Positions 778-26,000 of a stretch of DNA of 64,000 bases are shown piece after piece. Source of the stretch: Antedon mediterranea (Eukaryota; Echinodermata; Crinoidea; Comatulida; Antedonidae). The number at the start of each line of letters is the position of its first letter. The stretch's first letter is position 1. The stretch lies in contig NC_092671.1 in NCBI RefSeq assembly GCF_964355755.1, positions 7,637,001 to 7,701,000 on the forward strand. The letters are read 5' to 3'. The position numbers were made by a program, and so were the translations under genes. Below the pieces are notes generated by a model. That model searched no databases and was not told the DNA's origin. It saw only the letters and a list, made by a program, of their open reading frames with translations.

Positions 778-868
778 ATGGATGATCACAGTTACAGCAA
801 AGCTCATTCAAGATCGAAATCTATACTTTTCACAGCTCAAGTTTTTGGGGAAGCAATACCGGATGAAG
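778..868 (+). CDS. Zinc-finger gene: probable first coding exon
   Basis: ATG at 778, 30 codons plus one base, then donor G|GTTAGA at 869 in phase 1. This joins cleanly to the phase-1 acceptor of the next exon. The encoded start is MDDHSYSKAHSRSKS. The same frame is open back to an ATG at 625, but that stretch is odd (WWWFFF run) and is better read as 5'UTR. No signal peptide is visible. Confidence 0.6.
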
Positions 869-3800
869 GTTAGACTATACTATGGGATGTTATTAAGCCT
901 TAGGCCTATTCCCGTCTTGAATAAAAAAGTTTCTAGCAAGCTACAGCAGTGAGTAGAGCTAGGCTAGGCCTAGCCTAGCTAGGCCGGATTAGGCCAAGTT
1001 GAGCCGCCGACAAGTTGAGCCGCCGCCAGAAAAACGTTATTTTCTATGAAACGCCAAATGCTAACTTTCGCCGGTGCTCGTTTTTTATTTAATAGAAGTT
1101 CTATTTTCATTAGGGATAACGAAGTTTATATATCACACTTTTTAGTATAGTATTAAATATTACACTTTAAAGAACTATAATATGAAAATCTGACTTGTAC
1201 TTGTAGATTCCAAAATAAAAGACCTAAAACATCACCGAAAATGATCGTTTTTAGCCAAAAATGACGTAAACATGTTGCCCCCTCAGGTTAAATAATTACA
1301 TAAAATCACCGTTTTTTAGGAAAATATTTTGTGTATTAAAATTGTAAAATTCAATAAAATATGATATTAAAAGATAGTAAATAAAAGATATTAATTATTT
1401 AACATCATTTTAAGAATATCAATACTCTATTAGTCTTTTGGGTAGGCCTACACGTCCACGCCAGACAAATATAGAGTGCACGGCATTTTTACCTTGAAAG
1501 ATTACTTTCCTTTGCTGTGTTGTTTATGGTGGTTCAAACCAACATTGTAGTATGTAATTATATATTATTTATTTTCATGACACAATACACATAAAGACCA
1601 TGAACTTGTACTAGGACACCGCTCTAATCACTACGCGAAATGTCGTAAAAGACGCGCTGGGCGTTTCATAGAAATTACCGGCGGCTCAACTTGTCGGCGG
1701 CCCAACCGGTCATATGCCGCTAGGCCTAGTCTAGCGTCGGACAGGAAGGAGGCCTAGCCTAGGCATATAGGCCTAATACTAGGCTAGGCCTAGTTAATAA
1801 ACCGGTATAGGCATTATAGCCTAGTCAGTGGCTAAAAAAGCTAGGCCTAGTACCTACAGTAGGCCTACCTTAGTTTATTAGGTAGGCCTAATTCAAATTT
1901 AAAAATTGCATATTTTAATTTTATTCTCAAATTTTCTACGGTCTCTTTACAGGTTCACCCCAATTCTTAAACCCAGAAAAGCACATAGGCCTACGTCAAG
2001 TTAATGAATGCTGCATTATTAAGTGTGCGGAAAAAGAGCATTGCGAAGGATGGCATTGCCCCCTCTGTAACATGACTAGATCAAGATATCGAATGAGGAA
2101 CCATTTCTTCACAGTTCATTGGGCGTCTCGCGTTACAATTGGTGGTAACTATTTTTCTTACATAATTGTTATTAACATATTTTTAGATTACAATCAAACT
2201 ATTTATAAAATGTAATTATTTAGTTTTCATCATGTTACTTTGAAACATTGCATCTATTTTTTACTTGGTTATTTTTTAATAATGTTTTTGAAACAGAAAT
2301 CAATTCGTTGCTTTGCAAGTGTGAAATCCCGAATGTGACGACACCTCGCCATTGGCACTGTCCATTCTGCAACACTAAGCCGTATTTCAAACTGAAGTAT
2401 TTGGTTTTCCACATTGGCCGTGTACACAAACCTAACAAAACAGTGCAAGGATATACTCAACGAAAACTTGCTTACACCGTTGATTCTACCACCAACGCTG
2501 ATGAAACGAGTGCTGATACGACAACTAATGATAATACCCTGGATGTCAAAAACATTCGTTTATTAACTTGGACACCCAATAGTAAAGACACCAAAGATAT
2601 TTCTTTTCTTGGTTCTCATGGTTAGTATTGTTCAATATCTATTACCGTATATCCTCTGGTATAATCCCGCCCCCTAGAACAGGAAACTGGGCCAACTTTG
2701 GGTGGTGGGACTATACCTGCGAAAAGCCTGGTTAAGGAAATCAATGATTGGTACAGTATTAGCATTTCTTGTAAAAACTCAACTGGCTAGAGAGGTCTAC
2801 ATTCAGAACAAAAGTCAATACTGGGGCTATACCTGGGGATATGCCTGTTTGTGAAATCAGACATAAAGTAGAGGGTAGAGATTAGACCCGAAGTGGGATT
2901 ATACACGAGGATATACGGTATTATTATTCATAAAGAGGTCCCCCAGTATAAAGAAGAAATAAATAATACAATAAAAATATTTTAAAAATGTTAACCATAC
3001 TTGTAACCTGTCACTGATGACATGTTTTATTAAACTATATAAACTAGCTTGGTTTGACCAGTTTAATCTATTTGACCACAGGTTGCAAATTGATTCGTTG
3101 TACAGACCCTGGTCACTGTGCTGGCTGGCATTGCTCTCTATGTCCACATGCTACACAAAAACATAGAGTTAGAAGACATTTACTATCTACGCATTGGGCA
3201 TGTAGGATTGAAGTCGGCGGTAAGTTAAATGATATTATCCCTATAAAAAGGGGATACTTTTTTTGGTTCCGAAGGTGTCCCCTTAAAGATATATTGTCCC
3301 CCTTGGAAAAATATTTTTTTAAAATTTTTTTTGTTTGATATGCCAATTTAATGTCACATAATAGTTATTCACTTTGATCAAAAATTGGATTGGAAAACAT
3401 TTTTTTCTGGAAAACTGTAATATAAAGCAAAATATAGTCAAATCGAATGGAAGTCATGTTTTTTGGTTGAATTTAACAGTTTATTTAGTCTTTTTATGAG
3501 TGAAAACATTGTTGTTTTAGTTTTTTTTTCTATGGTAATGTGATTAACTTTATTGAAACTGCAAAATGGCCTATTCAAAGTCTTTTTTTGTTAATCTTAT
3601 CTGTTCATGTTTGTGAGGGACAATACTGTCAATTACACTGTATATATGGGCTGTATTGTAGAACAAACCTTACATTATTACATACAAATAAGTAGATTGT
3701 TTACAAAACAAATAATACATTTTGCATGTATGACATTTTATTGGTTTGCAGATAAAGTGGCAGTAATGTGCAAATGTGATCAGATTTCAAGATCTGGCTT

Positions 3801-6800
3801 AAGGCATTGGCATTGCCATTTCTGCAATAAGAAAATATCTCGGCCTAAGAAATTAATATTGCATTTGATGAATGTCCACAAACCAGACGAGCTTGTGAAA
3901 AGATATTCAATGGGAAAACTTCACAGCTCTTTTAACACAAGTGGTATTGTTACAGTACCACAAGCAGTGGACGACAAACAAGAATTTCCAATACAAGGTA
4001 TAGACATTTTGAATGATAAGAATGTTAACACACAATTTGGTGATCTAAATGTTCCCTAGTTTTATGTGTAAGTTTTGTTGTGTATTTATTTGTTGCCAAT
4101 ATAAGAATAAGAAGTGAGTATGCCTGTATATGGAATTTATCTAAGTTTAGCAAAAAAAATCATCTTAAGTTTGTTTGTTTTGTTTGTAAAGTTGGTTTTA
4201 AAATAACCTCACTAACTAATTTTACATGTTTCCTTTTTAAAATAAAACATCAGTTTTTTCACTTAAGCACTTCTTAACTATCTTGATTAAAGTAAAAATA
4301 TAATACCATCTAGGGTTTATAATTAGTTGTTTTATAATTTCAGTGCCTTCGTTTGACTGTGAGATTATTAAATGCCTTGAATCTGGTCATTGTAAGGGAT
4401 GGCACTGTCCCTTGTGTACCGTAAATGGTAGAAAATATTATATAAATACTCATCTGCAGACTGTTCATTTTGGTTCCAGATTGGAATTTGAAGGTAAAAT
4501 TCTTTATAGTTAATTGTTCTTGTCGGGAAATTAAATATCCCACAATATCTCACTGTCACATCAGTAAGCATGAGTTGTGAAACATGAAATTGAAATTACT
4601 TTTAGAGAAATTTAGAAGAATAGTAACTTGCATTCTTCTAGTATGTACTATAATATTTGTTTCTGAAATCATTGGACAAATTGGAGGCAAGTCTCTCAGA
4701 GAGACCACATAGTCGTTAAGGCCAGTGGCTAATTAAGCATTCTCCCTTAAACTAATCTCAATCACAACAACAAACAAATCTTCTTGATTTTGACAGATAA
4801 AGTCTCAGTTATGTGCAAGTGTGGCTCAAATGGAAAAAAAACTCCCAGGCACTGGCACTGTCCACTATGCACGAATACACCATACGTCAAATCCAAAATG
4901 CTTATGAATCATGTTTTATCTGTGCATAAGCCACAAACAACTGTGAGACGTTATTGTCAAGGAAAGTTAGTGACAGTTATTAATCAAGGTGAAAAACCTG
5001 ATCCACCAAAAAGAAAGAAAGAGAAACCAAACTTGACAGAGTCACTATTATACAATGGTTCAAGTAAGTATGTAAAATGATGATGATTATAAATACTGTA
5101 CAATGACCTTGATTAGGATGGCTTTATTTCAATGAAATACATTAGTTGAGTTCAACCCTTTTATTTAAATATAGAGGCACCGCAATGTTGAATCCCTTAG
5201 CAAGACCCTTATCCACCTTCCTTGCTCTTTCCCACAAAGGTGACAATGGGTACTGGTGTGTAAAAATACTGCCTAATCCTCCTTCAAGTCCCTCCTCCCC
5301 TACCAACAATAATACACATTTAGTGGAGTCTGCGCACAAACATTAAGAAAATAGAGTTGGCACCAAATTGACCTGACCTGTTGACCTTGGTAGATACCTC
5401 TACCCTCTGTAGCTGCTATGGGCCTGTACAGCCATAATCAGTGCATCCATGATTTGTCGATGTCGATTGGTTGATGAATTAAATGGCGAATCAATATCAA
5501 TGTACTATATCTTACTGTTTTTATATTTCAGCGATTGACATTATTCCGTGTGAGTTAGACGTTCACTGTGAGGGATGGCATTGTCCATTGTGTGATAAGG
5601 CTGCTAGGAAATACATCATTAAAAGACATCTATATGCTGTCCACTGGAGTTCTCGAGTGCAAGTGGGAGGTAACACTAATTGTTAATGATTTAATTTTTA
5701 TAGAATTCATCATCATCATTCATCTATCATTTTATTTGCACAAAATAAAATAAACTCTTATGAAATATTGTTTTAGGTGCAGCTCTTGTGTGGTTGAGAA
5801 TTTTTACTAGCCCTAATTTTTCATCACTCCTACTTTTGCACTACCCTAAACTATACTATTATTGTGAATTAATATATTTAATTCAGAATGTTGTTTTATT
5901 ATCTTTATAGATATGAAAGCACTGCTATGCAAGTGCCTAATGACCAAGTTAAAAGCATCACGCCACTTTCATTGTCCACTCTGCGAAAACGTAGTATATT
6001 CTAAGTCTCTGCAATTGCAAAAGCATATTCTACGTGAACATTCGCCGACTGCTGACGTCTACCAGTATTTCAAGGACCAAGCCATAAGCATTCTAAAAGG
6101 CATACCTCAGCGCGAGTCATTATTAATGATGGATGAAGATGAAGATATACAAACCGTTGATACCACAATGGAAACAACAGAACTTGCAGAAGCGACAGAA
6201 ATCTTACAAACAACAGAACCAACAACGTCAGAACCAATTACCACAATTGTTAGGAAAGACCAAGATTGCCAAAATGGTAAAGAATATACATTTTAAAATT
6301 AAATTTTTGGAAGTATTCATATAGGCAAGTAACATTTACACATTTGTATAACCAAGCCAGAGACGAGGCATAGATGCTTTAAATGTAATTATTAATATCA
6401 AATATGATGATCTGTGTAGGGGAATTGGGGTGGATGGTTAAAATTGAAATTTCAGACAAGGTGAGCCCCTCGTCTGCCTCATATTGGCTATGGCCCACTA
6501 GAAGTTTGTCTCACAAGGACCCCAAATAAGGTATATTATATGACATTTAATAGCAAAAAATAAATTAAACTAAAATGAATATACTTTACATATAATATAT
6601 AAAACTCCTCATAACTAAAATGTGTATGTAGGTTTCGTTTTTTGACCACTACATTGTTTGGTCAAAGTTTACAAGAAAAGCTTGTAAAGAATTCACATGA
6701 TCAGTCACAAATATGCATTTTGAAATAGAATTTGGATTTAAAATTTGTATATTCTTGCTTTCTTAGTGTGGGATATGGTGAAATGTGCTGAAACAGAACA

Positions 6801-8966
6801 TTGTGAGGGATGGCACTGTACCCTTTGTACCATGACTGGGAATATGCCAAAATTAAAGAAACACTTTCGTATTAATCATCGTAGCTCTCGTATTGAAGTT
6901 GGTGGTGAGTTTTTATTGTTTACTGTTTGTAGCGTTGCACTAAAGTATATCCTCAAGTGCGTGAAATATATATGAAAAATTGAAAAGATCTAGGGAGTCA
7001 ACTTTGTTCTTCTCGGTTAACTACACCTTATTACTAAAATTTGTCGGCGACGCAACGAAGTGATACTATGTGGCTACAGATACTACGCGTGTGAAATGGA
7101 TTTAACCGTAACATACTATTTCATTAATTAACAATAAAATTACACCTTTGAATAGCTGAATTGTCTAGCTTTACAGGGTTGTAAATAAATCATATAAATG
7201 AAAATTTCTTTAAGCTAAAATTATGTGTTTTGTAGAGCTCTCTACTAATTCGAGTTTTTCACAAACGCATGGTTATGTCAAATGACTACGCGGTTAGTAT
7301 CTCTTTGTGGTGTGGTTGACAAATTCTATTTTATTTTACTGTTATTCTATTCATAGGGATGGCCATTATTGCATGTATGTGTAGGAAAGTATCCGGGCTT
7401 GGACATCAACACTGGCACTGTCCTTTGTGCGTTAATCGAAGTTTTTCAAGAATTCTTAGCCTTGAAGATCACTTTGTAGCCACACACAAGCCTATAGCTG
7501 AAGTGAAGAGGTTTGCTAGGGGTAACATTATAACTGTAAAGGACTATGCCAATCCAACGAAATTCAACCAGCAGTTTAGCAACGATGATGACAAAGTTGA
7601 TGGTACATATGCTTTGTTGGTAATTATGTATATAATACAAGGAGCCAGTCAGCCCGGACCCCTATAAATTAAGTTCAGCACTTTATTTTACACTACTTTA
7701 GGCTCTGGGGCTCCATATTTCAAAATCCTGGGTCCACCCTGGAATATGGTTAGCAGATTCTCGGTATTGTATCTAACTTTCCTCATTATCCTAGGAAAAT
7801 TCTGTGATACAGCCTCACATGTGATATCACATATCATAGACTCTAACCAAACCTTACATGAAACATATGAGCGGCTGTATTACAGAGTTTGCAAATGATA
7901 CTGGACAAATATTGTTTTTTTGTAGAGATACAGCATTGAGAATCGGGTGCTATTGTTTAGATGTTCATTTCATTCATCAATCCTACAATAATAAATTATT
8001 TATATTTTTTTATCAAATTTAGAACCTCCACCAAAACAGGATTGTACTGTGCTCAAGTGTACATTGGACGGGCATTGCCTTGGATGGCATTGTCCATTTT
8101 GTTCTGTAAATGGAGAAAGGTTCCGAGTAAGGAATCATATTAAATCTGTGCATTGGGGGTCTCGTATAGAGATGGGCGGTAAGTTTCCAAAGTAGTACAG
8201 TACATTTGTTTTATTACAAAGGATAATATGCCTAGCCATTTTTCCTTCTATTTTAGGAATATTGTCAAGGATAACTATACATGATTACATTCACTGTCCC
8301 CAAAGGTGCTAACTGTGTTCATAGTACAAATATATAGGCAGTTGTTTGATTTAGATTTTTCCACTTTATTTTAATTTTTTATAATACAGTCAACTTTTCC
8401 AATACTGGACACCCTTCTTGGGCTGACCTAATATATCTAGTTTTCTGGAAAGTGTGGTATACAAAATGCGTTTTTAATGGTATAGATCAATTTTCCGGTT
8501 TTCAGAGAGGTATTTGAAGAGTTTTCTGTATTAAAGATCTTATAATGAATAATTGTAATTTTTAGATACATGGTCAGTTTTATGCAAATGTAAAAACGCA
8601 AATAAGACAACGCCACGACACTGGCATTGCACTTTCTGCGCAGACTCTACGTTTTCAAAGTCACACATCCTGGAAAAACATTTGATGCACATTCACAAAG
8701 TCACAACTGACGTAAAACGCTTTTCAAGATGCAAGCTTGTAGCAGTGAATGGGGTACCATTAAATGGCGAGACAGCTATGTGTAGCACTGTTACAGAAGA
8801 AGACGGTCAGCTTTCACTGATTCCCGAGAACGTTGACCTAGTAATACCCAATGAAAATGTAGTCGTACATGAAGAACAACCAATCGGAGAAGATGAACAA
8901 CCCACAGTATCGGAGGAAATTTTAAAATTTACCTGTGTAAGACAATTGTATCATACCATTTTATAA
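778..8966 (+). CDS. Unrecognised multi-exon gene with six tandem pairs of zinc-finger exons (spliced)
   Basis: Reconstructed from splice sites and repeated motifs. Coding exons: 778-868, 1953-2144, 2297-2620, 3082-3219, 3752-3997, 4344-4493, 4797-5063, 5532-5669, 5911-6276, 6767-6904, 7357-7602, 8023-8178, 8566-8966 (or an internal donor). After the leader, exons alternate between type A (HC-x-GWHCPLC, then H-x4-H, ending SR-x-x-x-GG) and type B (CKC, HWHCPLC, a second H pair, then HKP and a V-x-R-[YF]-x-x-G-K-L-like stretch). Each CPLC plus two His looks like a C2H2-type zinc site, with extra upstream Cys/His. Every complete internal exon is in phase 1-1, so pairs can be duplicated without a frameshift. 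Type-B exons end in variable Thr/acidic or basic linkers, including a possible nuclear localisation signal in B3. I do not recognise the family. Nucleic-acid binding in the nucleus is an inference from the fingers. The 3' end is uncertain. Confidence 0.82.
1006..1700. mobile_element. TIR element (about 0.7 kb) in intron 1 of the zinc-finger gene
   Basis: The left end (1006-1054, CCGACAAGTTGAGCCGCCG ... TTTCTATGAAACGCC) matches the reverse complement of the right end (1660-1700, GGCGTTTCATAGAAA ... GGCGGCTCAACTTGTCGG). The interior is AT-rich with no transposase frame, so it is a non-autonomous DNA element. It is flanked by dense AGGCCTAG-type repeats (955-1000 and 1710-1890). Confidence 0.7.
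1953..2144 (+). CDS. Zinc-finger exon A1
   Basis: Acceptor CTTTACAG at 1945-1952; donor GGTG|GTAAC at 2145. Encodes 64 residues with HCEGWHCPLC, then H-x4-H within FFTVHW, then SRVTIGG. It is longer than the other A exons because of about 18 extra N-terminal residues. Confidence 0.8.
2297..2620 (+). CDS. Zinc-finger exon B1
   Basis: Acceptor GAAACAG at 2290-2296; donor GTTAGT at 2621, phase 1-1. Contains LCKC, RHWHCPFC, an H-x4-H pair and HKP, then a tail of about 60 residues rich in Thr, Asp and Asn that looks disordered. Confidence 0.82.
2644..2919. mobile_element. 276-bp MITE in an intron of the zinc-finger gene
   Basis: Ends ACCGTATATCCTCTGGTATA and TATACACGAGGATATACGGT are near-perfect inverted repeats of about 24 bases. 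The flanks show a possible ATT duplication (2641-2643 and 2920-2922). No coding content. Confidence 0.7.
3082..3219 (+). CDS. Zinc-finger exon A2
   Basis: Acceptor GACCACAG ends at 3081; donor GTAAGT at 3220. 46 codons with GHCAGWHCSLC, RRHLLSTHW and RIEVGG. Confidence 0.83.
3752..3997 (+). CDS. Zinc-finger exon B2
   Basis: Acceptor GTTTGCAG ends at 3751; donor GTATAG at 3998. 82 codons with MCKC, RHWHCHFC, LHLMNVHKP and VKRYSMGKL. Confidence 0.83.
4344..4493 (+). CDS. Zinc-finger exon A3
   Basis: Acceptor TAATTTCAG ends at 4343; donor GTAAAA at 4494. 50 codons with GHCKGWHCPLC, THLQTVH and SRLEFEG. The usual W after the last His is F here. Confidence 0.8.
4797..5063 (+). CDS. Zinc-finger exon B3, with basic tail
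   Basis: Acceptor TTGACAG ends at 4796; donor GTAAGT at 5064. 89 codons with MCKC, RHWHCPLC, NHVLSVHKP and VRRYCQGKL. The tail contains PPKRKKEKP, a possible nuclear localisation signal. Confidence 0.84.
5532..5669 (+). CDS. Zinc-finger exon A4
   Basis: Acceptor TATTTCAG ends at 5531; donor GTAACA at 5670. 46 codons with HCEGWHCPLC, KRHLYAVHW and SRVQVGG. Confidence 0.83.
5911..6276 (+). CDS. Zinc-finger exon B4, with long Thr/Glu tail
   Basis: Acceptor CTTTATAG ends at 5910; donor GTAAAG at 6277. 122 codons. Core LCKC, RHFHCPLC, KHILREH, with HSP in place of HKP. The tail is low-complexity and rich in Thr, Glu and Asp; this is the longest linker of the set. Confidence 0.82.
6351..6495. repeat. 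Dispersed repeat, copy 1 (intron of the zinc-finger gene)
   Basis: About 145 bases beginning GAGGCATAGATGCTTTAAA and ending in GTCTGCCTCAT align with 55655-55816. Both copies have GAGGCA near the left and TGCCTC near the right, suggesting short inverted ends. Confidence 0.6.
6767..6904 (+). CDS. Zinc-finger exon A5
   Basis: Acceptor TTTCTTAG ends at 6766; donor GTGAGT at 6905. 46 codons with HCEGWHCTLC, KHFRINH and SRIEVGG. The W after the last His is replaced by R. Confidence 0.83.
7357..7602 (+). CDS. Zinc-finger exon B5
   Basis: Acceptor ATTCATAG ends at 7356; donor GTACAT at 7603. 82 codons with CMC in place of CKC, QHWHCPLC, DHFVATHKP and VKRFARGN, then a short Asp-rich tail. Confidence 0.82.
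8023..8178 (+). CDS. Zinc-finger exon A6
   Basis: Acceptor CAAATTTAG ends at 8022; donor GTAAGT at 8179. 52 codons with GHCLGWHCPFC, NHIKSVHW and SRIEMGG. The extra N-terminal residues resemble those of A3. Confidence 0.83.
8566..8966 (+). CDS. Zinc-finger exon B6, probable terminal exon
   Basis: Acceptor TTTTTAG ends at 8565. Core LCKC, RHWHCTFC, KHLMHIHK and VKRFSRCKL, then an acidic tail. The frame runs to a TAA at 8964-8966, with AATAAA at 9075-9080, so the exon may end the gene. A strong donor, TGT|GTAAGA, at 8937 (phase 0) and a weaker phase-1 donor at about 8806 could instead splice to acceptors at 9231-9232 or 9303-9304. Confidence 0.75.
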
Positions 8967-9074
8967 AATGCATAAATAATGTCAAATAAGAATTCTTTTC
9001 CGTACACTATTGCATGAATTAAAATAGTTATTATTCATACTCACGTAATTATTAAATTTAAACCCTATATATAG

Positions 9075-9640: not shown

Positions 9641-11989
9641 ATTGTTATACTAACGTAAAAGTGATGATAATAACATGCTCTAATGCACATTCAGCTTTCT
9701 GTAAACATTATTATTTTTTTTTAAATGGCTAAAACACCAAGTTTTTAAAATGTAATTATATGCAATAATGTTGCTATATATAACCATATATTGCGTTATC
9801 ATCATCTTATAGTGCCATAGAAACCAGCTTTACGGCGAAAAATAAAAAGGTTGAAATTTGACCATTTCTGAAAAAATCCATGTACTATACTGCCCCGTCA
9901 TGAAAGAACGACTCAACTGCATAAAGCAAAGTTTTGAGATAATCAACACAACGTGTTCTTGTTTTAGTTCTTCACGTGTGTAGATAATATTATTTTGATT
10001 AGCATAATAAACATGCGCAGAGGTGAATAATGGGTTCTGAGCATGTCCATTGTGCTATAGTAACCAGTTTTATCGAAAAATAAAAATGTCGAAAATTTGC
10101 CATTTTTTGAAAAATCCCTAGGGAAATTTTCGAAAAATTGCCGATTTTCGACCCTTTCATTTTTTGACATAAATGGTTACTATAGCATAATAAACATGCG
10201 CAGAGGTGAATAATGGGTTCTGAGCATGTCCATTGTGCTATAGTAACCGGTTTTATCGAAAAATAAAAAGGTCGAAAATTTGCCATTTTTTGAAAAATCC
10301 CTAGGGAAATTTTTGAAAAATGGCCAATTTTCGACCCTTTTATTTTTTGACATAAAAGGTTACTATTGCATAATAAACATGCGCAGAGACGAATAATGGG
10401 TTCTACGCATGTCAATTGTGCTATAGTAACCAGTTTTGACATAAATGGTTACTATAGCATAATAAACATGCGCAGAGACGAATAATGGGTTCTACGCATG
10501 TCAATTGTGCTATAGTAACCAGTTTTGACATAAATGGTTACTATTGCATAATAAACATGCGCAGAGACGAATAATGGGTTCTGAGCATGTCAATTCTGCT
10601 ATAGTATAACCAGTTTTGACATAAATGGTTACTATAACATAATAAACATGCGCAGAGTCCACTAATGGGTTCTGCGCATGTTAATTGTGCTACAGTAACC
10701 AGTTTTGACATAAATGGTTACTATAGCATAATAAACATGCGCAGGGGCGACTAATGGGTTCTGCGCATGTTAATTGTGCTATAGTAACCAGTTTTATCGA
10801 AAAATAAAAAGGTCGAAAATTTGCCATTTTTGGAAAAAATCCCTGTACTATAGTACTGGGAAATTTTCGAAAAATGGCCGATTTTCGACCCTTTTATTTT
10901 TTGACATAAATGGTTACTATTGCATAATAAACATGCGCAGAGACAAATAATGGGTTCTGCGCATGTCAATTGTGCTATAGTAACCAGTTTTGACATAAAT
11001 GGTTACTATAGCATAATACACATGCACAGAGACGAATAATGGGTTCTGCGCATGTCAATTGTGCTATAGTAACCAGTTTTGACATAAATGGTTACTATAG
11101 CATAATAAACATGCGCAGAGTCCACTAATGGGTTCTGCGCATGTTAATTGTGCTATAGTAACCAGTTTTATCGAAAAATAAAATGGTCGAAAATTTGCCA
11201 TTTTTTGGAAAAAATCCCTGTACTATAGTACAGGAAAATTTTCGAAAAATGGCCGATTTTCAACCCTTTTATTTTTTGACATAAATGGTTACTATTGCAT
11301 AATAAACATGCGCAGAGACGAATAATGGGTTCTGCGCATGTTAATTGTGCTATAGTAACCAGTTTTGACATAAATGGTTACTATAGCATAATAAACATGC
11401 GCAGAGTCCACTAATGGGTTCTGCGCATGTTAATTGTGCTATAATAACCAGTTTTATCGAAAAATAAAAAGGTCGAAAATTTGCCATTTTTTAAAAAATC
11501 CCTGTACTATAGTACAGGGAAATTTTCGGAATATGGCCGATTTTTGACCATTTTATTTTTTGACATAAAAGGTTACTATTGCATAATAAACATGCGCAGA
11601 GACGAATAATCGGTTCTACGCATGTCAATTGTGCTATAGTAACCAGTTTTGACATAAATGGTTACTATTGCATAATAAACATGCGCAGAGACGAATATTG
11701 GGTTCTGCGCATGTCAATTCTGCAATAGTAACCAGTTTTGACATAAATGGTTACTATAGCATAATAAACATGCGCAGAGTCGCTAATGGGTTCTGCGCAT
11801 GTTAATTGTGCTATAGTAACCAGTTTTGACATAAATGGTTACTATAACATAATAAACATGCGCAGAGTCCACTAATGGGTTCTGCGCATGTTAATTGTGC
11901 TACAGTAACCAGTTTTGACATAAATGGTTACTATAGCATAATAAACATGCGCAGAGTCCACTAATGGGTTCTGCGCATGTCAATTGTGC

Positions 11990-14317
11990 TATAGTAACCA
12001 GTTTTTGACATAAATGGTTACTATAGCATAATAAACATGCGCAGAGTCCACTAATGGGTTCTACGCATGTTAATTGTGCTATAGTAACCAGTTTTATCGA
12101 AAAATAAAAAGGTCGAAAATTTGCCATTTTTGGAAAAAATCCCTGTACTATAGTCCAGGGAAATTTTCGAAAAATGGCCGATTTTCGACCCTTTTATTTT
12201 TTGACATAAATGGTTACTATTGCATAATAAACATGCGCAGAGACAAATAATGGGTTCTGCGCATGTCAATTGTGCTATAGTAACCAGTTTTGACATAAAT
12301 GGTTACTATAGCATAATACACATGCACAGAGACGAATAATGGGTTCTGCGCATGTCAATTGTGCTATAGTAACCAGTTTTGACATTAATGGTTACTATAG
12401 CATAATAAACATGCGCAGAGTCCACTAATGGGTTCTGCGCATGTTAATTGTGCTATAGTAACCAGTTTTATCGAAAAATAAAATGGTCGAAAATTTGCCA
12501 TTTTTTGGAAAAAATCCCTGTACTATAGTACAGGAAAATTTTCGAAAAATGGCCGATTTTCAACCCTTTTATTTTTTGACATAAATGGTTACTATTGCAT
12601 AATAAACATTCGCAGAGACGAATAATGGGTTCTGCGCATGTCAATTGTGCTATAGTAACCAGTTTTGACATAAATGGTTACTATAGCATAATAAACATGC
12701 GCAGAGTCCACTAATGGGTTCTGCGCATGATAATTGTGCTATAGTAACCAGTTTTATCGAAAAATAAAATGGTCGAAAATTTGCCATTTTTTGGAAAAAA
12801 TCCCTGTACTATAGTACAGGAAAATTTTCGAAAAATGGCCGATTTTCAACCCTTTTATTTTTTGACATAAATGGTTACTATTGCATAATAAACATGCGCA
12901 GAGACGAATAATGGGTTCTGCGCATGTCAATTGTGCTACAGTAACCAGTTTTGACATAAATGGTTACTATAGCATAATAAACATGCGCAGAGGCGAATAA
13001 TGGGTTCTGCGCATGTCAATTGTGCTATAGTAACCAGTTTTATCGAAAAATAAAAAGGTCGAAAATTTGCCATTTTTTGAAAAATCCCTGTACTATAGTA
13101 CAGGGAAATTTTCGGAATATGGCCGATTTTCGACCATTTTATTTTTTGACATAAAAGGTTACTATTGCATAATAAACATGCGCAGAGACGAATAATCGGT
13201 TCTACGCCTATCAATTGTGCTATAGTAACCAGTTTTGACATAAATGGTTACTATTGCATAATAAACATGCGCAGAGACGAATATTGGGTTCTGCGCATTT
13301 CAATTGTGCTATAGTAACCAGTTTTGACATAAATGGTTACTATAGCATAATAAACATGCGCAGAGTCGCTAATGGGTTCTGCGCATGTTAATTGTGCTAT
13401 AGTAACCAGTTTTGACATAAATGGTTACTATAGCATAATAAACATGCGCAGAGTCCACTAATGGGTTCTGCGCATGTTAATTGTGCTATAGTAACCAGTT
13501 TTATCGAAAAATAAAATGGTCGAAAATTTGCCATTTTTTGGAAAAAATCCCTGTACTATAGTACAGGAAAATTTTCGGAATATGGCCGATTTTAGACCAT
13601 TTTATTTTTTGACATAAAAGGTTATTATTGCATAATAAACATGCGCAGAGACGAATAATGGGTTCTACGCATGTCAATTGTGCTATAGTAACCAGTTTTG
13701 ACATAAATGGTTACTATTGCATAATAAACATGCGCAGAGACGAATAATGGGTTCTGAGCATGTCAATTCTGCTATAGTAACCAGTTTTGACATAAATGGT
13801 TACTATAACATAATAAACATGCGCAGAGTCCACTAATGGGTTCTGCGCATGTTAATTGTGCTACAGTAACCAGTTTTGACATAAATGGTTACTATAGCAT
13901 AATAAACATGCGCAGAGGCGACTAATGGGTTCTACGCATGTTAATTGTGCTATAGTAACCAGTTTTATCGAAAAATAAAAAGGTCGAAAATTTGCCATTT
14001 TTGGAAAAAATCTCTGTACTATAGTACTGGGAAATTTTCGAAAAATGGCCGATTTTCGACCCTTTTATTTTTTGACATAAATGGTTACTATTGCATAATA
14101 AACATGCGCAGAGACAAATAATGGGTTCTGCGCATGTCAATTGTGCTATAGTAACCAGTTTTTGACATAAATGGTTACTATTGCATAATAAACATGCGCA
14201 GAGACAAATAATGGGTTCTGCGCATGTCAATTGTGCTATAGTAACCAGTTTTGACATAAATGGTTACTATAGCATAATACACATGCACAGAGACGAATAA
14301 TGGGTTCTGCGCATGTC
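11990..14317. repeat. Higher-order repeat copy 1 (2328 bp) of the satellite
   Basis: Landmarks at 12296, 12468, 12754, 12936 and 13501 recur exactly 2328 bases later (14624, 14796, 15082, 15264, 15829). The boundaries are chosen, since the start of a tandem unit is arbitrary. Confidence 0.8.
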
Positions 14318-16740
14318 AATTGTGCTATAGTAACCAGTTTTGACATAAATGGTTACTATAGCATAATAAACATGCGCAGAGTCCACTAATGGGTTCTGCG
14401 CATGTTAATTGTGCTATAGTAACCAGTTTTATCGAAAAATAAAAGGGTCGAAAATTTGCCATTTTTTGGAAAAAATCCATGTACAGGGAAATTTTCGAAA
14501 AATGGCCGATTTTCGACCCTTTTATTTTTTGACATAAATGGTTACTATTGCATAATAAACATGCGCAGAGACAAATAATGGGTTCTGCGCATGTCAATTG
14601 TGCTATAGTAACCAGTTTTGACATAAATGGTTACTATAGCATAATACACATGCACAGAGACGAATAATGGGTTCTGCGCATGTCAATTGTGCTATAGTAA
14701 CCAGTTTTGACATAAATGGTTACTATAGCATAATAAACATGCGCAGAGTCCACTAATGGGTTCTGCGCATGTTAATTGTGCTATAGTAACCAGTTTTATC
14801 GAAAAATAAAATGGTCGAAAATTTGCCATTTTTTGGAAAAAATCCCTGTACTATAGTACAGGAAAATTTTCGAAAAATGGCCGATTTTCAACCCTTTTAT
14901 TTTTTGACATAAATGGTTACTATTGCATAATAAACATTCGCAGAGACGAATAATGGGTTCTGCGCATGTCAATTGTGCTATAGTAACCAGTTTTGACATA
15001 AATGGTTACTATAGCATAATAAACATGCGCAGAGTCCACTAATGGGTTCTGCGCATGATAATTGTGCTATAGTAACCAGTTTTATCGAAAAATAAAATGG
15101 TCGAAAATTTGCCATTTTTTGGAAAAAATCCCTGTACTATAGTACAGGAAAATTTTCGAAAAATGGCCGATTTTCAACCCTTTTATTTTTTGACATAAAT
15201 GGTTACTATTGCATAATAAACATGCGCAGAGACGAATAATGGGTTCTGCGCATGTCAATTGTGCTACAGTAACCAGTTTTGACATAAATGGTTACTATAG
15301 CATAATAAACATGCGCAGAGGCGAATAATGGGTTCTGCGCATGTCAATTGTGCTATAGTAACCAGTTTTATCGAAAAATAAAAAGGTCGAAAATTTGCCA
15401 TTTTTTGAAAAATCCCTGTACTATAGTACAGGGAAATTTTCGGAATATGGCCGATTTTCGACCATTTTATTTTTTGACATAAAAGGTTACTATTGCATAA
15501 TAAACATGCGCAGAGACGAATAATCGGTTCTACGCCTATCAATTGTGCTATAGTAACCAGTTTTGACATAAATGGTTACTATTGCATAATAAACATGCGC
15601 AGAGACGAATATTGGGTTCTGCGCATTTCAATTGTGCTATAGTAACCAGTTTTGACATAAATGGTTATTATAGCATAATAAACATGCGCAGAGTCGCTAA
15701 TGGGTTCTGCGCATGTTAATTGTGCTATAGTAACCAGTTTTGACATAAATGGTTACTATAGCATAATAAACATGCGCAGAGTCCACTAATGGGTTCTGCG
15801 CATGTTAATTGTGCTATAGTAACCAGTTTTATCGAAAAATAAAATGGTCGAAAATTTGCCATTTTTTGGAAAAAATCCCTGTACTATAGTACAGGAAAAT
15901 TTTCGGAATATGGCCGATTTTAGACCATTTTATTTTTTGACATAAAAGGTTACTATTGCATAATAAACATGCGCAGAGACGAATAATGGGTTCTACGCAT
16001 GTCAATTGTGCTATAGTAACCAGTTTTGACATAAATGGTTACTATTGCATAATAAACATGTGCAGAGACGAATAATGGGTTCTACGCATGTCAATTGTGC
16101 TATAGTAACCAGTTTTGACATAAATGGTTACTATTGCATAATAAACATGCGCAGAGACGAATAATGGGTTCTGAGCATGTCAATTCTGCTATAGTAACCA
16201 GTTTTGACATAAATGGTTACTATAACATAATAAACATGCGCAGAGTCCACTAATGGGTTCTGCGCATGTTAATTGTGCTACAGTAACCAGTTTTGACATA
16301 AATGCTTACTATAGCATAATAAACATGCGCAGAGGCGACTAATGGGTTCTGCGCATGTTAATTGTGCTATAGTAACCAGTTTTATCGAAAAATAAAAAGG
16401 TCGAAAATTTGCCATTTTTGGAAAAAATCCCTGTACTATAGTACTGGGAAATTTTCGAAAAATGGCCGATTTTCGACCCTTTTATTTTTTGACATAAATG
16501 GTTACTATTGATTAATAAACATGCGCAGAGACAAATAATGGGTTCTGCGCATGTCAATTGTGCTATAGTAACCAGTTTTTGACATAAATGGTTACTATTG
16601 CATAATAAACATGCGCAGAGACAAATAATGGGTTCTGCGCATGTCAATTGTGCTATAGTAACCAGTTTTGACATAAATGGTTACTATAGCATAATACACA
16701 TGCACAGAGACGAATAATGGGTTCTGCGCATGTCAATTGT
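14318..16740. repeat. Higher-order repeat copy 2 of the satellite
   Basis: Matches copy 1 at an offset of 2328 up to about 16032, then at 2417 (for example 13922 to 16339 and 14257 to 16674). It has therefore gained one extra 89-bp module near 16033-16121. An older partial copy lies at 10751-11371, 1300 bases before 12051-12671. Confidence 0.78.
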
Positions 16741-18600
16741 GCTATAGTAACCAGTTTTGACATAAATGGTTACTATAGCATAATAAACATGCGCAGAGTC
16801 CACTAATGGGTTCTGCGCATGTTAATTGTGCTATAGTAACCAGTTTTATCGAAAAATAAAATGGTCGAAAATTTGCCATTTTTTGGAAAAAATCCCTGTA
16901 CTATAGTACAGGAAAATTTTCGGAATATGGCCGATTTTCGACCATTTTATTTTTTGACATAAAAGGTTACTATTGCATAATAAACATGCGCAGAGACGAA
17001 TAATGGGTTGTGCGCATGTCAATTGTGCTACAGTAACCAGTTTTGACATAAATGGTTACTATAGCATAATAAACATGCGCAGAGACGAATAATGGGTTCT
17101 ACGCATGTCAATTGTGCTATAGTAACCAGTTTTGACATAAATGGTTACTATTGCATAATAAACATGCGCAGAGACGAATAATGGGTTCTGAGCATGTCAA
17201 TTCTGCTATAGTAACCAGTTTTGACATAAATGGTTACTATAGCATAATAAACATGCGCAGAGTCGCTAATGGGTTCTGCGCATGTTAATTGTGCTATAGT
17301 AACCAGTTTTATCGAAAAATAAAGAGGTTGGAAATTGGCCATTTTTTGGAAAAAATCCCTGTACAGGGAAATTTTCGAAATTGTGCTACAGTAACCAGTT
17401 TTGACATAAATGGTTACTATAGCATAATAAACATGCACAGAGACAAATAATGGGTTCTGCACATGTCAATTGTGCTATTGTAACCAGTTTTGACATAAAT
17501 GGTTACTATAGCATAATAAACATGCGCAGAGTCCACTAATGGGTTCTGCGCATGTTAATTGTGCTATAGTAACCAGTTTTATCGAAAAATAAAATGGTCG
17601 AAAATTTGCCATTTTTTGGAAAAAATCCCTGTACTATAGTACAGGAAAATTTTCGAAAAATGGCCGATTTTCAACCCTTTTATTTTTTGACATAAATGGT
17701 TACTATTGCATAATAAACATGCGCAGAGACGAATAATGGGTTCTGCGCATGTCAATTGTGCTACAGTAACCAGTTTTGACATAAATGGTTCCTATAGCAT
17801 AATAAACATGCGCAGAGGCGAATAATGGGTTCTGCGCATGTCAATTGTGCTATAGTAACCAGTTTTATCGAAAAATAAAAAGGTCGAAAATTGGCCATTT
17901 TTTTGAAAAAATCCCTGTACAGGGAATTTTCATAATTCAATTATGCGCTCATTTCGTTATATTTACACTAAATATATTTCCTTATAATTATGTTATGTCA
18001 AAATATAATGGGGGAAAAATGGGCCCTTTATTTACATATTTACTGAGACTGAAACATCCAAAATAGGCAGAGCTGATTAATAAATATGATTCTATTATCA
18101 AACACTATAAAGAAATCAATAAATATTCACTATATAATTACATACATTCTTTATAGAAAGAAGGTTAATCATATCCCTGATTATTATTTAAAAAAAAAGT
18201 TATACTGTACATGATAACAAGGTAATCCAAGAAAGATAAGCCTTTTTACAGGCCTTTTTATGATTTGAGGGAAAATAATCTTAGTTAATTATGTAGTGCC
18301 TAGCATAAGCAAGATGATGAGCTACATAAGGTGGAGTAGAATAAAAACATTAAATAAATGAAAACAACTTGGAAAGGAGAGTCTTCAGTTAAGAAAATGT
18401 TAATTTCGATATAAAGAATGATATGCCAACATGATGTTAATATCTCATTTGTGTATGTACAGTATTGGTTTAATTGGAATGATTTTAGAGTAGGGGAAAT
18501 ATAAATTTGGTAATGTCCAATACAACACTGGCATGGAACAATAATATGGCATCAACTCATTTTTCCTAGGATTTTCATAGTCAGACATATATATTATCTA

Positions 18601-20029: not shown

Positions 20030-23000
20030 CTTGAAAAAAAAAATATGATACAATAAATATTAAATTATAAAATTACTAATATTTTTCTGACAGCTATTTA
20101 TATAGATTCATTATAATATATACTTAGTCTATCACCCATTATTATAAACTTTGCGCTGAATCCTAGCTGTCCTAACTATAGGACTATGTTTCCATACATG
20201 TATGATCCAAAAAATGACCAGGGTAATAATGTGCAGTGCATTGAGAGCTTCTTATATGCGATATAATGAATAACTATTATTATTATTTATTATTAAAAAG
20301 TTCAAATTTATCTTTATTTAAATATATACTTAAAACCAATGTTCTTTAAGTGATCTTTATCAATACAATGCTTTCTTACATTGGTATCAAATGTTTTGTG
20401 GCAGCAAAGTATATTAAATCATTGTGTTGATTATCAGAAGGTGTGATAACATACATTGGTAACCTTACTAACACTAAATAAAAATTCTTAATAAATTAAA
20501 ATGGCTTTCCTAAAATAATCCACCTACCCTTTCTTATCAAATACTTTATATAATAAAACAAGGCTTTAAATGAACTTACCTATCTGCTATTTGAACGACA
20601 TTTTGTTTACTGGTCTCCATTTGTAAAGCTCGACTAAATCGTGTCAGAATTTCTATAACCTTCAAGGATATGAATACAAAGTCACCCTTCTTTGTAAATT
20701 CTCCACCCTGAAAAGTAAATGTTTTTGTTTTTAATATTAATTAATAAAAGATATTTGGTAAAATAATAGTCAATTTGTTATTACAACTCCAATATTCCTG
20801 AACAACAAATTGTCAGCGATACCTAACTACACAAAATGATTTATTTGAAGAAAACTATTGCTATTTATAGTTTTGCCGATATATTTGCACTTTATTGCTT
20901 CAGTCTGTATGCTAAACTATGTCTTTTCAACATTTAATTATAATAAATGTATTTGATTTGTTCAAATAAAATATAGCTTACTTTAGTAACATGTACAACA
21001 AATACGCCATCGCTGTATGGACTGCACGTGATCCTTGTAATCTCATTTAGTGGAATACGATATTTGATTGCTAGCGTCTTTTGATCCATTATGAGGAATG
21101 ACTTGGAACTTAGAACTAGTAACGTGTGTGTCGTCTAAACAATAAATTTGTATACAAGTTAATAAACGATTTAACAAATGAAATATTTCAACAATGCATT
21201 TTTCTAAAAAAACCTATATATATCCCGTTCACATTAAACATCATGAATAAAGCTTGGTTCCCACTAGAACTTAACGCAACCAATTACAAGCGAAGTTATT
21301 GACAGTTAGCAATCACAAGCGAATAAACCATCGCTTGTGATTGGTCAATTCACTTGCGTTGCGTTACGTCCTTGTGTTGCGTCGCTAGTGGGAACCACGC
21401 TTAAACTCTGGAGAAACAGCGTGTCTCTAGAGAACTAGTACTACATTGACTAGAACGCTGCAGAGATCCTATTCACATCAATCCTGAACCACTGCAATTT
21501 AACAATAACAAAATAGCTTAACTACTGCCCTATATGTCACTATGAATGATAAACATAATATAATAAAAGAATTTTTGGTTGAAGGTGGCTTCTGACCATA
21601 AAAACACCAGTGTCGGTACATTGCACATTGTATCTCTGGTTCAGAAGAGGGTAGCCTTCTGACCATAAACACACCAGTGTCCGTATATTGCACATTGTAT
21701 CTCCGGTGTGTCTTTGGTACGTTCCAGAATTTTCAGGTGTTCAGCACTGGTGAATTTAATTTTTGAATTTACACCTAAACAGAACAGTAGTGTTGACGTC
21801 CTGTGTTTGGGTTTTGGATAATAGTGTGCCTATTACCTTGCCATTGTTTCTGTTAACCTTATCAACGACATCAGCAAAGTGAATCTTTTGATCTTCAGTT
21901 TGCACGGCTATTTTGCTATATTTGGTGTTGTTTCGTAACCGCACATAGTCGCCACGGAATTGCACAGATATTCTACAAGAGTTAGAAAATAAAATATAAT
22001 GGATAGGTGTCTATCTATTAATTTGATAGGAATTGGCTGTGATTTCTGTATGTAAATAAAGTTAAACCAAAGAGTCGCAATAAATTCACTAATCCAAATA
22101 TCTAATGTCTCATTATATTATCAATCCATCATCAATTTCAATCGTCACTCCTTTCAATTCACTTTTTATGTTTTATAATAAATTCAAAATAACTTACGAG
22201 GCTGGATAACTTGATTTCTTCTCTTTAAATAGGTCACTTGCAGTGACCTTTGTCCCAAGAATTTCTCTTTTTTGCTCATCAACTTGGCTTCTGTATACGG
22301 TTGCCTATATAGCAACAAAAGATTGAAATATACAGTACAGTATTACTTTACATTATATTCATTAAAAGTGGGTAATTGTATGTATGTTCTATCAACCATA
22401 TGTCCTAGCACTACATAATAATATTTATAAACAGTCATTGCATAAATGTTTATTTGAACCTACACAAAAACTGTAACTTAATTATGTTAAATCTATTAAG
22501 TCATTGGCTGAAATACAATAAGCACAAGAATTCATACCCTCCATCGTCTGAATACATCTTTCAGCTTTAAATGCGCTGACTTGTGAATAGGTGAACATGG
22601 TGGCCAGTTCTTGTCTGTTGGCGACATGGACGGTAACTGGGTTTTTAATTTCAACAAATACTTTGAAATCTATTTATAAAAAATGTACATATAAATCATT
22701 AATATTGTAAACATTTTCTGATCTAAAGGAAGAGGCACTAAATAGAGAAGTATATAAGACTGGAAAAAGACAATTGGCATTGGTGTACTGGAAAGACAAG
22801 GTTTATCTTTATACATACCACATATCGCCGCATAAAGGCAACAATCTTTGGAGCTGCATTGGCACTGAATAACTTTCTGTATTCTCTTCGTACCTATGTT
22901 GAATTAAAACATGAAAAATAATCTACAAATAATGAACGATTAGGAGATTTAATGGTGAGAATTTGTTCATGAATTAAAAGATTGAGTGGTCTATTCGAGA

Positions 23001-26000
23001 AGTTTGTGCTCGAAATTTGCAGCAGTGCAGCGCACACATTACAGAAGTAAATAAATACTTAATTTTGTGTGCAAAAATGTTACCATTCTGACATAAAAAT
23101 GTACTCACTCGCCAACCAATGAAAAACTTCTTGATAATGCCAACAGCCCAGATACACTTTGCCTCGTAACGCAAACGTTTGTACTCTTTCCGTGCAAGGT
23201 ATCCACGCCATAGAGACGTTATCAAGATACATGACATTCGCATTTTGAGGTACTTTGATTTGGCTTTGTAGCCTTTGTAGTGTGCTGCGATTTGCGTCAC
23301 ACTCGCTCGCATCTTTTGGTATTTCTTACAATCTCGATGTCCTTTGTAAATCTTCTGTATTAGTGTGGCGAGGTAGTGCATGCGATGGTGGCGTCGTTTT
23401 TCTAAGTCAAAGAGCTGTAAGACAGACAGATTATTAATTGTTATAATAAATTGTATTCCACATGTTTGAAATGTATATTATTATTCGCTTACTGTACTTA
23501 CTATATACCATATTAAATCATTATAGTAATGACAACATGTTTATTTAAAATTGTAGAAAAAAGGCAATAAATAAACAACTTACTGTTCTTGGATTCCTAA
23601 TGAAAATTTTAGTTCTTCCAAAGGCATACTCCTCCTTCTTGTATCCAAGATGTTTGAAGAGTTGGACCATTCCTTCTCTGGCCGGGCCATTCCAATTCGG
23701 CCAAGTCTTTGGACAAAGCATCTTGTATCGTGAGAGACACAGCTCATACGATTGTCTGAATGCATAGCCTGCCCTCCTTACTCGTACATTCTCCATTAAA
23801 CTATAAGTAGAAAGATATTGTCCAATGGTTACTAGGTTGCGAGACCTTCTTTAATTTGGAGAGATGTTTGTGTTTGGTTGTTAATAAACTTAACCACTTA
23901 AAGCGCACATCTATTTTACTTTCCTCTGTACATAGTTGCATATGGCTTTTGATTTAATATTATAATTATTTTTATAGATTACAATAGTGTACATTAAAAA
24001 TATAATTACCCTAAATATCGGACTTGGTGTCTTACTAGTGCCTCATTAAAATCATTTGGTGCTTTGTCATCATTTGGCTGTTGAAAAAAAATAAATTTAT
24101 TAATTGCAATGTAATATTTAAAAAAAGAACAAATATTTACAAACCAATCAGCTTTATACTTTCAGCAACAAACACATATTGAAACGGGGTAGTTATGAAA
24201 GCTATCACAACTGGTTGGGTATGTATTTACATGTTACTTAAGTTCCTTGGTAGATCTATCAGTTGATACTTATGGATTACGAGTCCAAATGTAATGATGT
24301 TGAATTGCTTGTATACATAAGGACCAAACATAATAGTACACCTATGATCAATATTTTGCAATATTCTAGGGCCTCTTTATTTTTTAGCCATTATATTTAA
24401 TTAAATTGTTTTTAAAATATGTTAATAATATAAGATAAAAATAACATCAATATGATTTTCTGTATTTTTCTGTATCTGGTATATAAATAAGACCCCATTT
24501 ACACTTCAGCTTTTAGCGAGCCCGAAGCCGGCTCGAGGCCGGCTCTGAGCCAAAAGTGCACAAGTGTAAACACTCTGGGAACAACCGAGCCGGCCTCGAG
24601 CCGGCTCAAGTTTGAGCCTAGTCTAGAGTAGGCTTCGGGCTGGCAATTGCGGGCTTCGGGCCGGCACTTCGTATAGTGTAAACACTCTCGGTAATAAAAT
24701 GAACGTTCTAGGTCAACTATAGCTTTAAGTTTACGAAAATTATTGCTGATGAATCGGAAATTCTTCATTGAAATTAAATTGGTGAAGATAGTATACGCCT
24801 TTTTCACGAAACGAAGACATCTTCGATCTATGACAAACAATGCCGTGCAACGAAGCGTAACCAACAGAAATAACATAGCGTTTTCATGGGATTTCAGGAC
24901 ACCATGCGGCGTCTATGCTTATAAACTGTGGTGTTTTTTTCGATGGACTTAAGAAGTGAAAAAAACAATTTTAATTTTTTTTTAATCACACAGTTATATA
25001 GGCTAATCTTTAAAGAACATTTTACAGTACAAATTTTGTCCATACGACTGTCCGTTGAGGAGTTACGAATTTTTAAGTAACTTGTCCTCCGAAAATAGGC
25101 TGAAAACGCTATGTTATTTCTGTTAGTTGCGCTTCGTTGAACGGCATTGTTTGTGTTTTCATCGATCGAAGATGTCTTCCGTTTCGTAAAAAAGGCGTAT
25201 TATCTACTACTATTCTTTAGAAAACGAGACGCAAACATTAAGTAGTAAAGCAATAATACAATTGTTTTGATCCATATTAAATACCGTTATTTGATTCTTT
25301 TTTGATAAAGTTGATAGGCCTAGGCCTAGTGTAGATCGACAACTTTTTAACTTTTTAAGACGCACATAAGCGGATATGACGTGAATGTAGCGAAATCGTA
25401 TCATCGAGCACTCTTCCGCGAGAGCAAGTGTAAACACAATAGTAGGGGCCCGAGGCCGGCTTTTTGGGTAAGTGTAAACACATTGCAGGCTAAAAAGAAA
25501 GCCGGCGTCGGGCCGACTTCGGGCCGGCTAAGAAATCGTCGATGAAGTGTAAATGGGGTCTAATTGTATTTGTGTGTACGAGAGGTTCAAACAGATGAAG
25601 AGCAATGACCATCCGTCATATAGAAGGTGTCCACACAGTGAGGTTCAATACTGTATATATTGAGTTCACTGGGTATTAATTCAAATCCACTACTCACCTT
25701 GATACATCGGATGTAATTAGGATCCTTACATACTAGATTCTTCATTAACTGTGCTATAGAAGACTGAATACAAATATAAATAAATGATAAATAATAAAAC
25801 TATGATAACTAAAATCTGCAATATGTATAAAATCAATTCAATATAACATTTATTCAATAATGGTAAGACAAATAATAAAAGAATAATAAACAATAAGAAA
25901 CAGTAATACAATACAAAAACAAGAAGAGGTAAATAAAAGTTACTACATTGGCCAAGGTTTTCATGATGTATTTAATAGCCTTTCACACTGGGACGCATTT

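Follow-up and report, generated by a model that had tools for sequence, protein, structure and literature searches.

What is the origin of a gene built from six tandem pairs of zinc-finger exons, and what might its product do? The question is raised by a locus of the crinoid Antedon mediterranea, which we analyzed within a 64,000-nucleotide stretch of the genome (the window; positions refer to it unless another locus is named). Joining the 12 alternating exons, designated A and B (1953-8966), to a likely first exon (778-868) yields a single open frame of 950 amino acids with its stop codon at position 8966. All 12 introns have GT-AG borders, and each of the 11 internal A and B exons is in phase 1-1 with a length divisible by three, in agreement with the initial annotation, which had described six strict A-B alternations and complete internal exons in phase 1-1. 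As far as sequence alone can show, the 12-exon array, with its probable first exon, is one real gene. The start at 778 is less sure than the A and B exons, given an in-frame ATG at 625, which lies 3' of an in-frame TAA at 568 and provides an alternative start. The features are as follows, with the A and B exons placed by the joined frame and the alignment of the pairs.

778..868, plus strand: E0, probable first coding exon, ATG at 778, phase-1 donor GTTAGACT, joins A1 without a stop
1953..2144, plus strand: exon A1, HC-x-GWHCPLC finger, phase 1-1
2297..2620, plus strand: exon B1, CKC...HWHCPFC finger and Thr/Asp-rich linker, phase 1-1
3082..3219, plus strand: exon A2, phase 1-1
3752..3997, plus strand: exon B2, phase 1-1
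4344..4493, plus strand: exon A3, phase 1-1
4797..5063, plus strand: exon B3, phase 1-1
5009..5020, plus strand: KRKK basic stretch in the B3 linker (PPKRKKEKP), candidate nuclear localisation signal by motif
5532..5669, plus strand: exon A4, phase 1-1
5911..6276, plus strand: exon B4, FHCPLC variant and acidic linker (71-aa stretch, pI 4.1), phase 1-1
6767..6904, plus strand: exon A5, phase 1-1
7357..7602, plus strand: exon B5, phase 1-1
8023..8178, plus strand: exon A6, phase 1-1
8566..8966, plus strand: exon B6, acidic tail (78-aa stretch, pI 4.1) and stop codon
9075..9080, plus strand: AATAAA, candidate polyadenylation signal by consensus match

ATTAAA also occurs at 9018 and 9051, 3' of the gene. 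The predicted protein is basic overall (pI 8.7) and contains the two acidic stretches and the single KRKK linker stretch; both values of pI 4.1 were calculated from the fixed stretches of 71 and 78 residues in the B4 linker and the B6 tail, respectively.

Several features of the surroundings were also recorded. Just downstream of the gene lies a nested tandem array (9972-17931) with periods of 89, 178-183, 284-286, 367-375 and 464 bp, which is rich in CATGCGCAGA and TCTGCGCATG. Two introns carry dispersed repeats: that at 3283-3626 has, in whole or in part, at least 41 matches in the genome at 76-82% identity, and that at 2652-2927 has one, at 84%. Further downstream, on the minus strand, 22974-23477 and 26153-26500 resemble coding parts of a myosin-like gene, with matches to an IQ motif (39 bits) and to Myosin_head (32.2 bits, just short of the cut-off of 33.3), respectively, and these predicted exons are an ordinary gene setting.

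We evaluated the conservation of the six pairs within the window. The pattern [WF]HC..C.{8,18}H.{2,6}H, applied to all six frames of the window, gave 12 matches, all inside the A and B exons, and none in any of 200 dinucleotide-shuffled versions of 1953-8966. The WHC-x-x-C core with a following H-x4-H pair, which had been ascribed to every exon, thus recurs in 12 of 12 as a core, but the WHC spelling itself holds for 11, since B4 has FHC, with Phe replacing Trp. Across the six pairs, 21 of the 108 aligned columns do not vary; 16 of these hold Cys or His, and at 18 of the 21 two or more codons are used, indicating that the conservation acts at the protein level and that the core looks kept by selection. 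The pairs are 34-48% identical to one another, and a repeat search (at least 40 bases) reported no intron similarity between them, suggesting that the pair duplications are old. Growth by duplication of exon pairs, as the initial annotation had proposed, fits this evidence. The Nei-Gojobori (NG86) dS was saturated, and hence undefined, for the window pairs tried, so that no dN/dS is given for them.

Next to the core, the arrangement of the ligands defines the module. All four C2H2 ligands (CxxC-x(n)-H-x(3-5)-H) are kept in all 12 halves. N-terminal to them stands a second invariant Cys/His set, C-x4-H-C-x3-H in the A half and C-x-C...H-x-H in the B half, and the 16 invariant Cys/His residues of a pair are accounted for by these two four-ligand sets in each half. 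In the A half, the second set is present with all four ligands in the window pairs and in the pairs of relatives on C1 and C4, and is missing with all four in relatives on C6 and C7 (these relatives are described below). That the ligands are present or missing together suggests that they jointly make up a single second zinc site. In the B half, one of the four is lost in the C6 relative and a different one in a truncated C1 copy. AlphaFold models built from six rows were poor (mean pLDDT 55.9 for the A half and 61.6 for the B half), so the second zinc site stays putative.

The initial annotation had placed the gene in no named family. This stands for the whole 950-aa protein, on which no Pfam model exceeded its cut-off (a DUF4442 hit was a chance match only and was rejected), but the B half of the module is a C2H2-type finger by profile. 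Against solved C2H2 fingers in the PDB, the best match of the B-half profile was ZFAT (E 7.3e-6); the A half alone gave E 0.11 or worse. In a Foldseek search for the beta-beta-alpha fold with the B-half model (pLDDT 61.6), the best 50 of 65 matches were mostly C2H2 fingers, none of them under E 1. When the six pairs were searched singly, zf-C2H2_4 appeared in four of the six (best E 5.2e-4), and pair 1 scored 15 bits, below the curated cut-off of 27.

To find relatives of the pair, the genome was searched with one pair, which gave 23 candidate matches. Twenty were at E<1e-3, comprising the 12 window exons and eight A or B halves from four further loci (C1:2.94M, C1:12.42M, C4:31.81M and C4:32.00M); the remaining three were weaker (E 0.24-1.16). 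As this search scores only the best candidates, there are at least four A-B loci outside the window, and among its matches the window is the only locus with several pairs. The WHC..C pattern proved too unspecific as a genome-wide DNA probe (94 matches versus 38 in the reversed control) and was rejected, and in scans of viral and prokaryotic contigs, none of 32, 15 and 53 pattern stretches was confirmed as a relative.

The four loci are two near-identical copies on C1 (L003 and L004) and two on C4 (L001 and L002), and at all four the A and B exons are followed 3' by transposase-like exons. The whole A-B pair thus recurs, in the same genome, ahead of the transposase part of CxC4/KDZ-type (Kyakuja-Dileera-Zisupton) genes, which overturns the earlier view that it had no known relative; a transposase-related origin of the pair had not been suspected in that annotation. 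The window profile matched the C1 pair with a hhalign E of 1e-32 and 45% identity. The intron between A and B splits the same codon (G|AT, phase 1) in the window gene and at four of the four C1/C4 loci, so that these genes agree with the window gene in intron site and phase. L001 contains a SAP domain (29.9 bits, cut-off 23.9), and L003 a CxC4 match just below its cut-off (26.3 versus 26.9 bits). L004 matches L003 over the 5' part only, has no match to the transposase core and is a truncated copy. The two C4 copies lie in opposite orientation about 194 kb apart and are 95-99% identical over the longer matching blocks. A fifth related locus, L007 on C5, has the later exons, and no A-B pair was found there. 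The window gene differs from these CxC4/KDZ-type genes in carrying six pairs, and neither CxC4 nor SAP nor a transposase core was detected in it: the KDZ transposase domain model (PF18758) had no match at the window locus, and no similarity to transposases below E 0.1 was seen in the window beyond the B exons. Upstream of the A exon in the C1 genes, shifted matches suggest a tandem repeat of about 157 bp (L003 1-2055, L004 1-3364).

The transposase core also matched several broken copies and two intact, intronless frames of 1280 and 1354 amino acids on C7 and C6, respectively.

L005 (C7), 3088-6930: intact, intronless transposase-like frame with CxC4 and a C-terminal SprT-like metallopeptidase domain
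L006 (C6), 915-4979, minus strand: intact, intronless transposase-like frame with CxC4 and a C-terminal SprT-like metallopeptidase domain

In the genome search, CxC4 (PF18717), which Pfam describes as KDZ transposase-associated, scored 39.0 bits on C7 and 33.5 on C6 (cut-off 26.9), with the C1, C4 and C5 copies below the cut-off; hmmscan on the whole proteins gave CxC4 at 36.0 for L005 and, for L006, only CxC5 at 17.4, below its cut-off. The SprT-like domain is at the C-terminal end of both frames, barely over the cut-off in L006 (25.8 versus 25.6), and in L005 it matched Spartan in the PDB (E 0.001). An Ulp1-like stretch was seen by eye only, and NCBIfam gave no match on either frame.

Both frames start with a plain C2H2 finger followed by a CK-[CL]...HYHC..C finger, a simpler version of the A-B pair. 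A profile made from the window pairs alone scored 23.5 bits on C6 and 19.4 on C7 over both halves, with 9.8 as the best of 3000 shuffles, and hhalign of the window profile with the C7 pair gave E 5.9e-8. With the A-half profile alone, C6 and C7 were undetected, its eight best rows being shuffles; the B-half profile alone found C7 at 16.0 bits, with C6 outside the top eight. Part of the score on C6 and C7 is, by this comparison, generic to C2H2 fingers, since the same profile gives the ZFAT finger 23.2 bits. This value, as high as that of the C6 pair, would fit an ordinary polydactyl C2H2 gene that had converged with the transposase finger on the C2H2 fold, and the match of the B half to ordinary C2H2 fingers and the weak matches of the Pfam C2H2 models point the same way. 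Such convergence is nevertheless very improbable: the HC-x-GWHC and CKC...HWHC extensions and the A-B order are common to the window and the C1/C4 genes, and for the latter the same intron site and phase argue strongly against it. For C6 and C7, homology with the window pair is the better reading, given the common position, order and CKC part. Taken together, the compared sequences give good support to homology of the module with the finger pair at the N-terminus of a CxC4/KDZ-type transposase lineage in the same genome.

How firmly the KDZ label applies is a separate matter. PF18758 matched none of the C1, C4, C5, C6 and C7 relatives in the genome search, nor L005 and L006 in hmmscan; its five genome matches fell only at C2:34.40M, C6:11.856M and C6:11.871M, the last under its cut-off. 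The KDZ label is therefore based on CxC4 and a general likeness. A candidate D-D-E triad, with catalytic residues picked by eye in the core alignment of the relatives, is kept as D in six, D in five and E in six of six rows. We found no clear terminal inverted repeat at L005 or L006, so the mobility of these frames stays putative; a 22-nt, 91% complementary pair rich in T/A runs (498-519 and 5110-5131) flanks the L006 frame, and the L005 candidates, among 25 of 53 pairs, were mostly AT repeats. Transposase fragments at C3:27.165M and C10:4.956M have equal scores and identities and may be a recent or an assembly duplicate. Satellite-like long arrays with open frames adjoin transposase copies (L006 6607-7260, L008 816-2032, L007 49-1956), and the repeat peptides of the L006 and L008 arrays are alike.

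We then considered which way the pair moved. Trees gave no decision: with the intronless pairs included, the window pairs formed one clade in 1% of 200 bootstraps, a topology that was not rejected (p-AU 0.43), and without them the window and transposase pairs separated in 76% of the bootstraps. By its supports, the tree would neither prove nor refute a transposase-to-host direction. At 50% identity, pair 6 of the window is closer to the C1 pair than to any other pair in the array. We also aligned the tail of each B exon with the C1 protein C-terminal to its finger pair; 13 of 500 shuffles reached the score of B6, compared with 66 for B4, 104 for B5, 376 for B3, 469 for B1 and 480 for B2. Pair 6 could thus keep an old junction with the transposase, a likeness that is not significant after six tests and, B6 being one of six tails tested, counts as a hint only.

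The same identity of pair 6, slightly above any value between window pairs, would also be expected if a transposase-like gene had received its A-B pair, perhaps from pair 6, as a targeting domain from an ancient host multi-finger gene, and the tree does not clearly place the transposase pairs outside those of the window. We consider this reverse transfer unlikely, because the far more distant intronless CxC4 relatives on C6 and C7 already start with a simpler A-B pair, suggesting that the pair is older in the transposase lineage than the form in the window. The window gene and the C1/C4 genes have in common the A/B intron and the elaborated form of the A half, and the intronless transposases have the simpler pair. 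The simplest history would be that the pair was first in a transposase, was elaborated and acquired introns, and then gave rise to a six-pair gene without the enzyme; by these comparisons, we regard the transposase-to-host direction as likely.

A further possibility concerns the status of the intron-bearing loci themselves, which might all be old host genes, in which case domestication of the C1, C4 and C5 relatives had already taken place and the window gene would be a paralogue from which the enzymatic half was lost. Their introns, their low copy number in the genome searches and the element ends that were not identified are consistent with this, and the truncated L004 and the opposed C4 copies look like segmental duplications. 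The copies are, however, spread over three chromosomes, and KDZ-type (Zisupton) elements with several exons are described in the relevant passages of PMC9297572, which leaves this alternative with a minor share of the probability. It overlaps the explanation that we prefer, and the odds of the readings consequently do not add to 1. That explanation, to which we assign a probability of about 0.62, is that the host gene is a co-opted and multiplied N-terminal finger pair of a CxC4/KDZ-type transposase and probably encodes a nuclear DNA-binding regulator.

In the mechanism that we propose, the A-B pair, bounded by phase-1 introns, would have become separated from the transposase, with the transposase half lost or never copied into the window gene, and the A-intron-B unit would have been multiplied by tandem duplication, in which the symmetric 1-1 exons keep the frame. 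Each half would combine a C2H2 finger with the second conserved Cys/His set, so that a module could bind at most four zinc ions and the protein at most 24. The 12 C2H2-type fingers, the basic pI of 8.7, the acidic stretches and the KRKK stretch fit a nuclear DNA-binding regulator, and the nucleic-acid-binding role suggested in the initial annotation is compatible with them. The protein is probably nuclear and may bind DNA modularly, making contact through the finger pair with which the transposase would recognize element ends, and the acidic linkers and tail may serve as regulatory regions.

That hosts domesticate transposase DNA-binding domains is well established (PMC10027918), and the window gene can be compared with several described systems. 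Fish F-box-CxC7 genes resemble it in that a zinc-binding domain is common to KDZ elements and host genes, with the direction of sharing left open in the passages of PMC12062965 concerned; they differ in their cysteine cluster (CxC7) and F-box fusion, and those passages describe no tandem array. FLYWCH factors are likewise zinc-finger DNA-binding proteins, said in the relevant part of PMC10027918 to come from a Mutator transposase. They differ from the window gene in the transposase superfamily and in the type of zinc finger. The window gene shares the C2H2 core (CxxC...H-x4-H) with polydactyl C2H2 proteins such as ZFAT, CTCF and Zif268; unlike them, it adds a further Cys/His set to each half, has long linkers and exons that alternate in pairs, and its whole protein has no Pfam C2H2 match. 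Tandem copies are also found in some FLYWCH factors (human FLYWCH1). Among the titles and abstracts listed from the open-licence literature, we found no description of a sixfold array of a KDZ-type finger pair, or of a KDZ pair amplified in a host gene. As far as this literature shows, transposase-domain domestication and a zinc cluster common to KDZ elements and hosts are known, and the sixfold array of a KDZ-type finger pair appears to be new.

Tentatively, the gene might represent a new source class of transposon-derived transcription factors, in which the N-terminal pair of a CxC4/KDZ transposase first exchanged a single C2H2 finger for an A half with two sites and then became a sixfold, 24-zinc array that may recognize the parent elements, or genes in which the ends of those elements occur, and hold them in check; we hold this broader proposal to be doubtful at present. 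For the orphan zinc-finger gene itself, the analysis provides a testable origin, namely a transposase DNA-binding module taken up and multiplied by its host, and as the presumed parent and the derived forms reside in one genome, their DNA targets are directly comparable.
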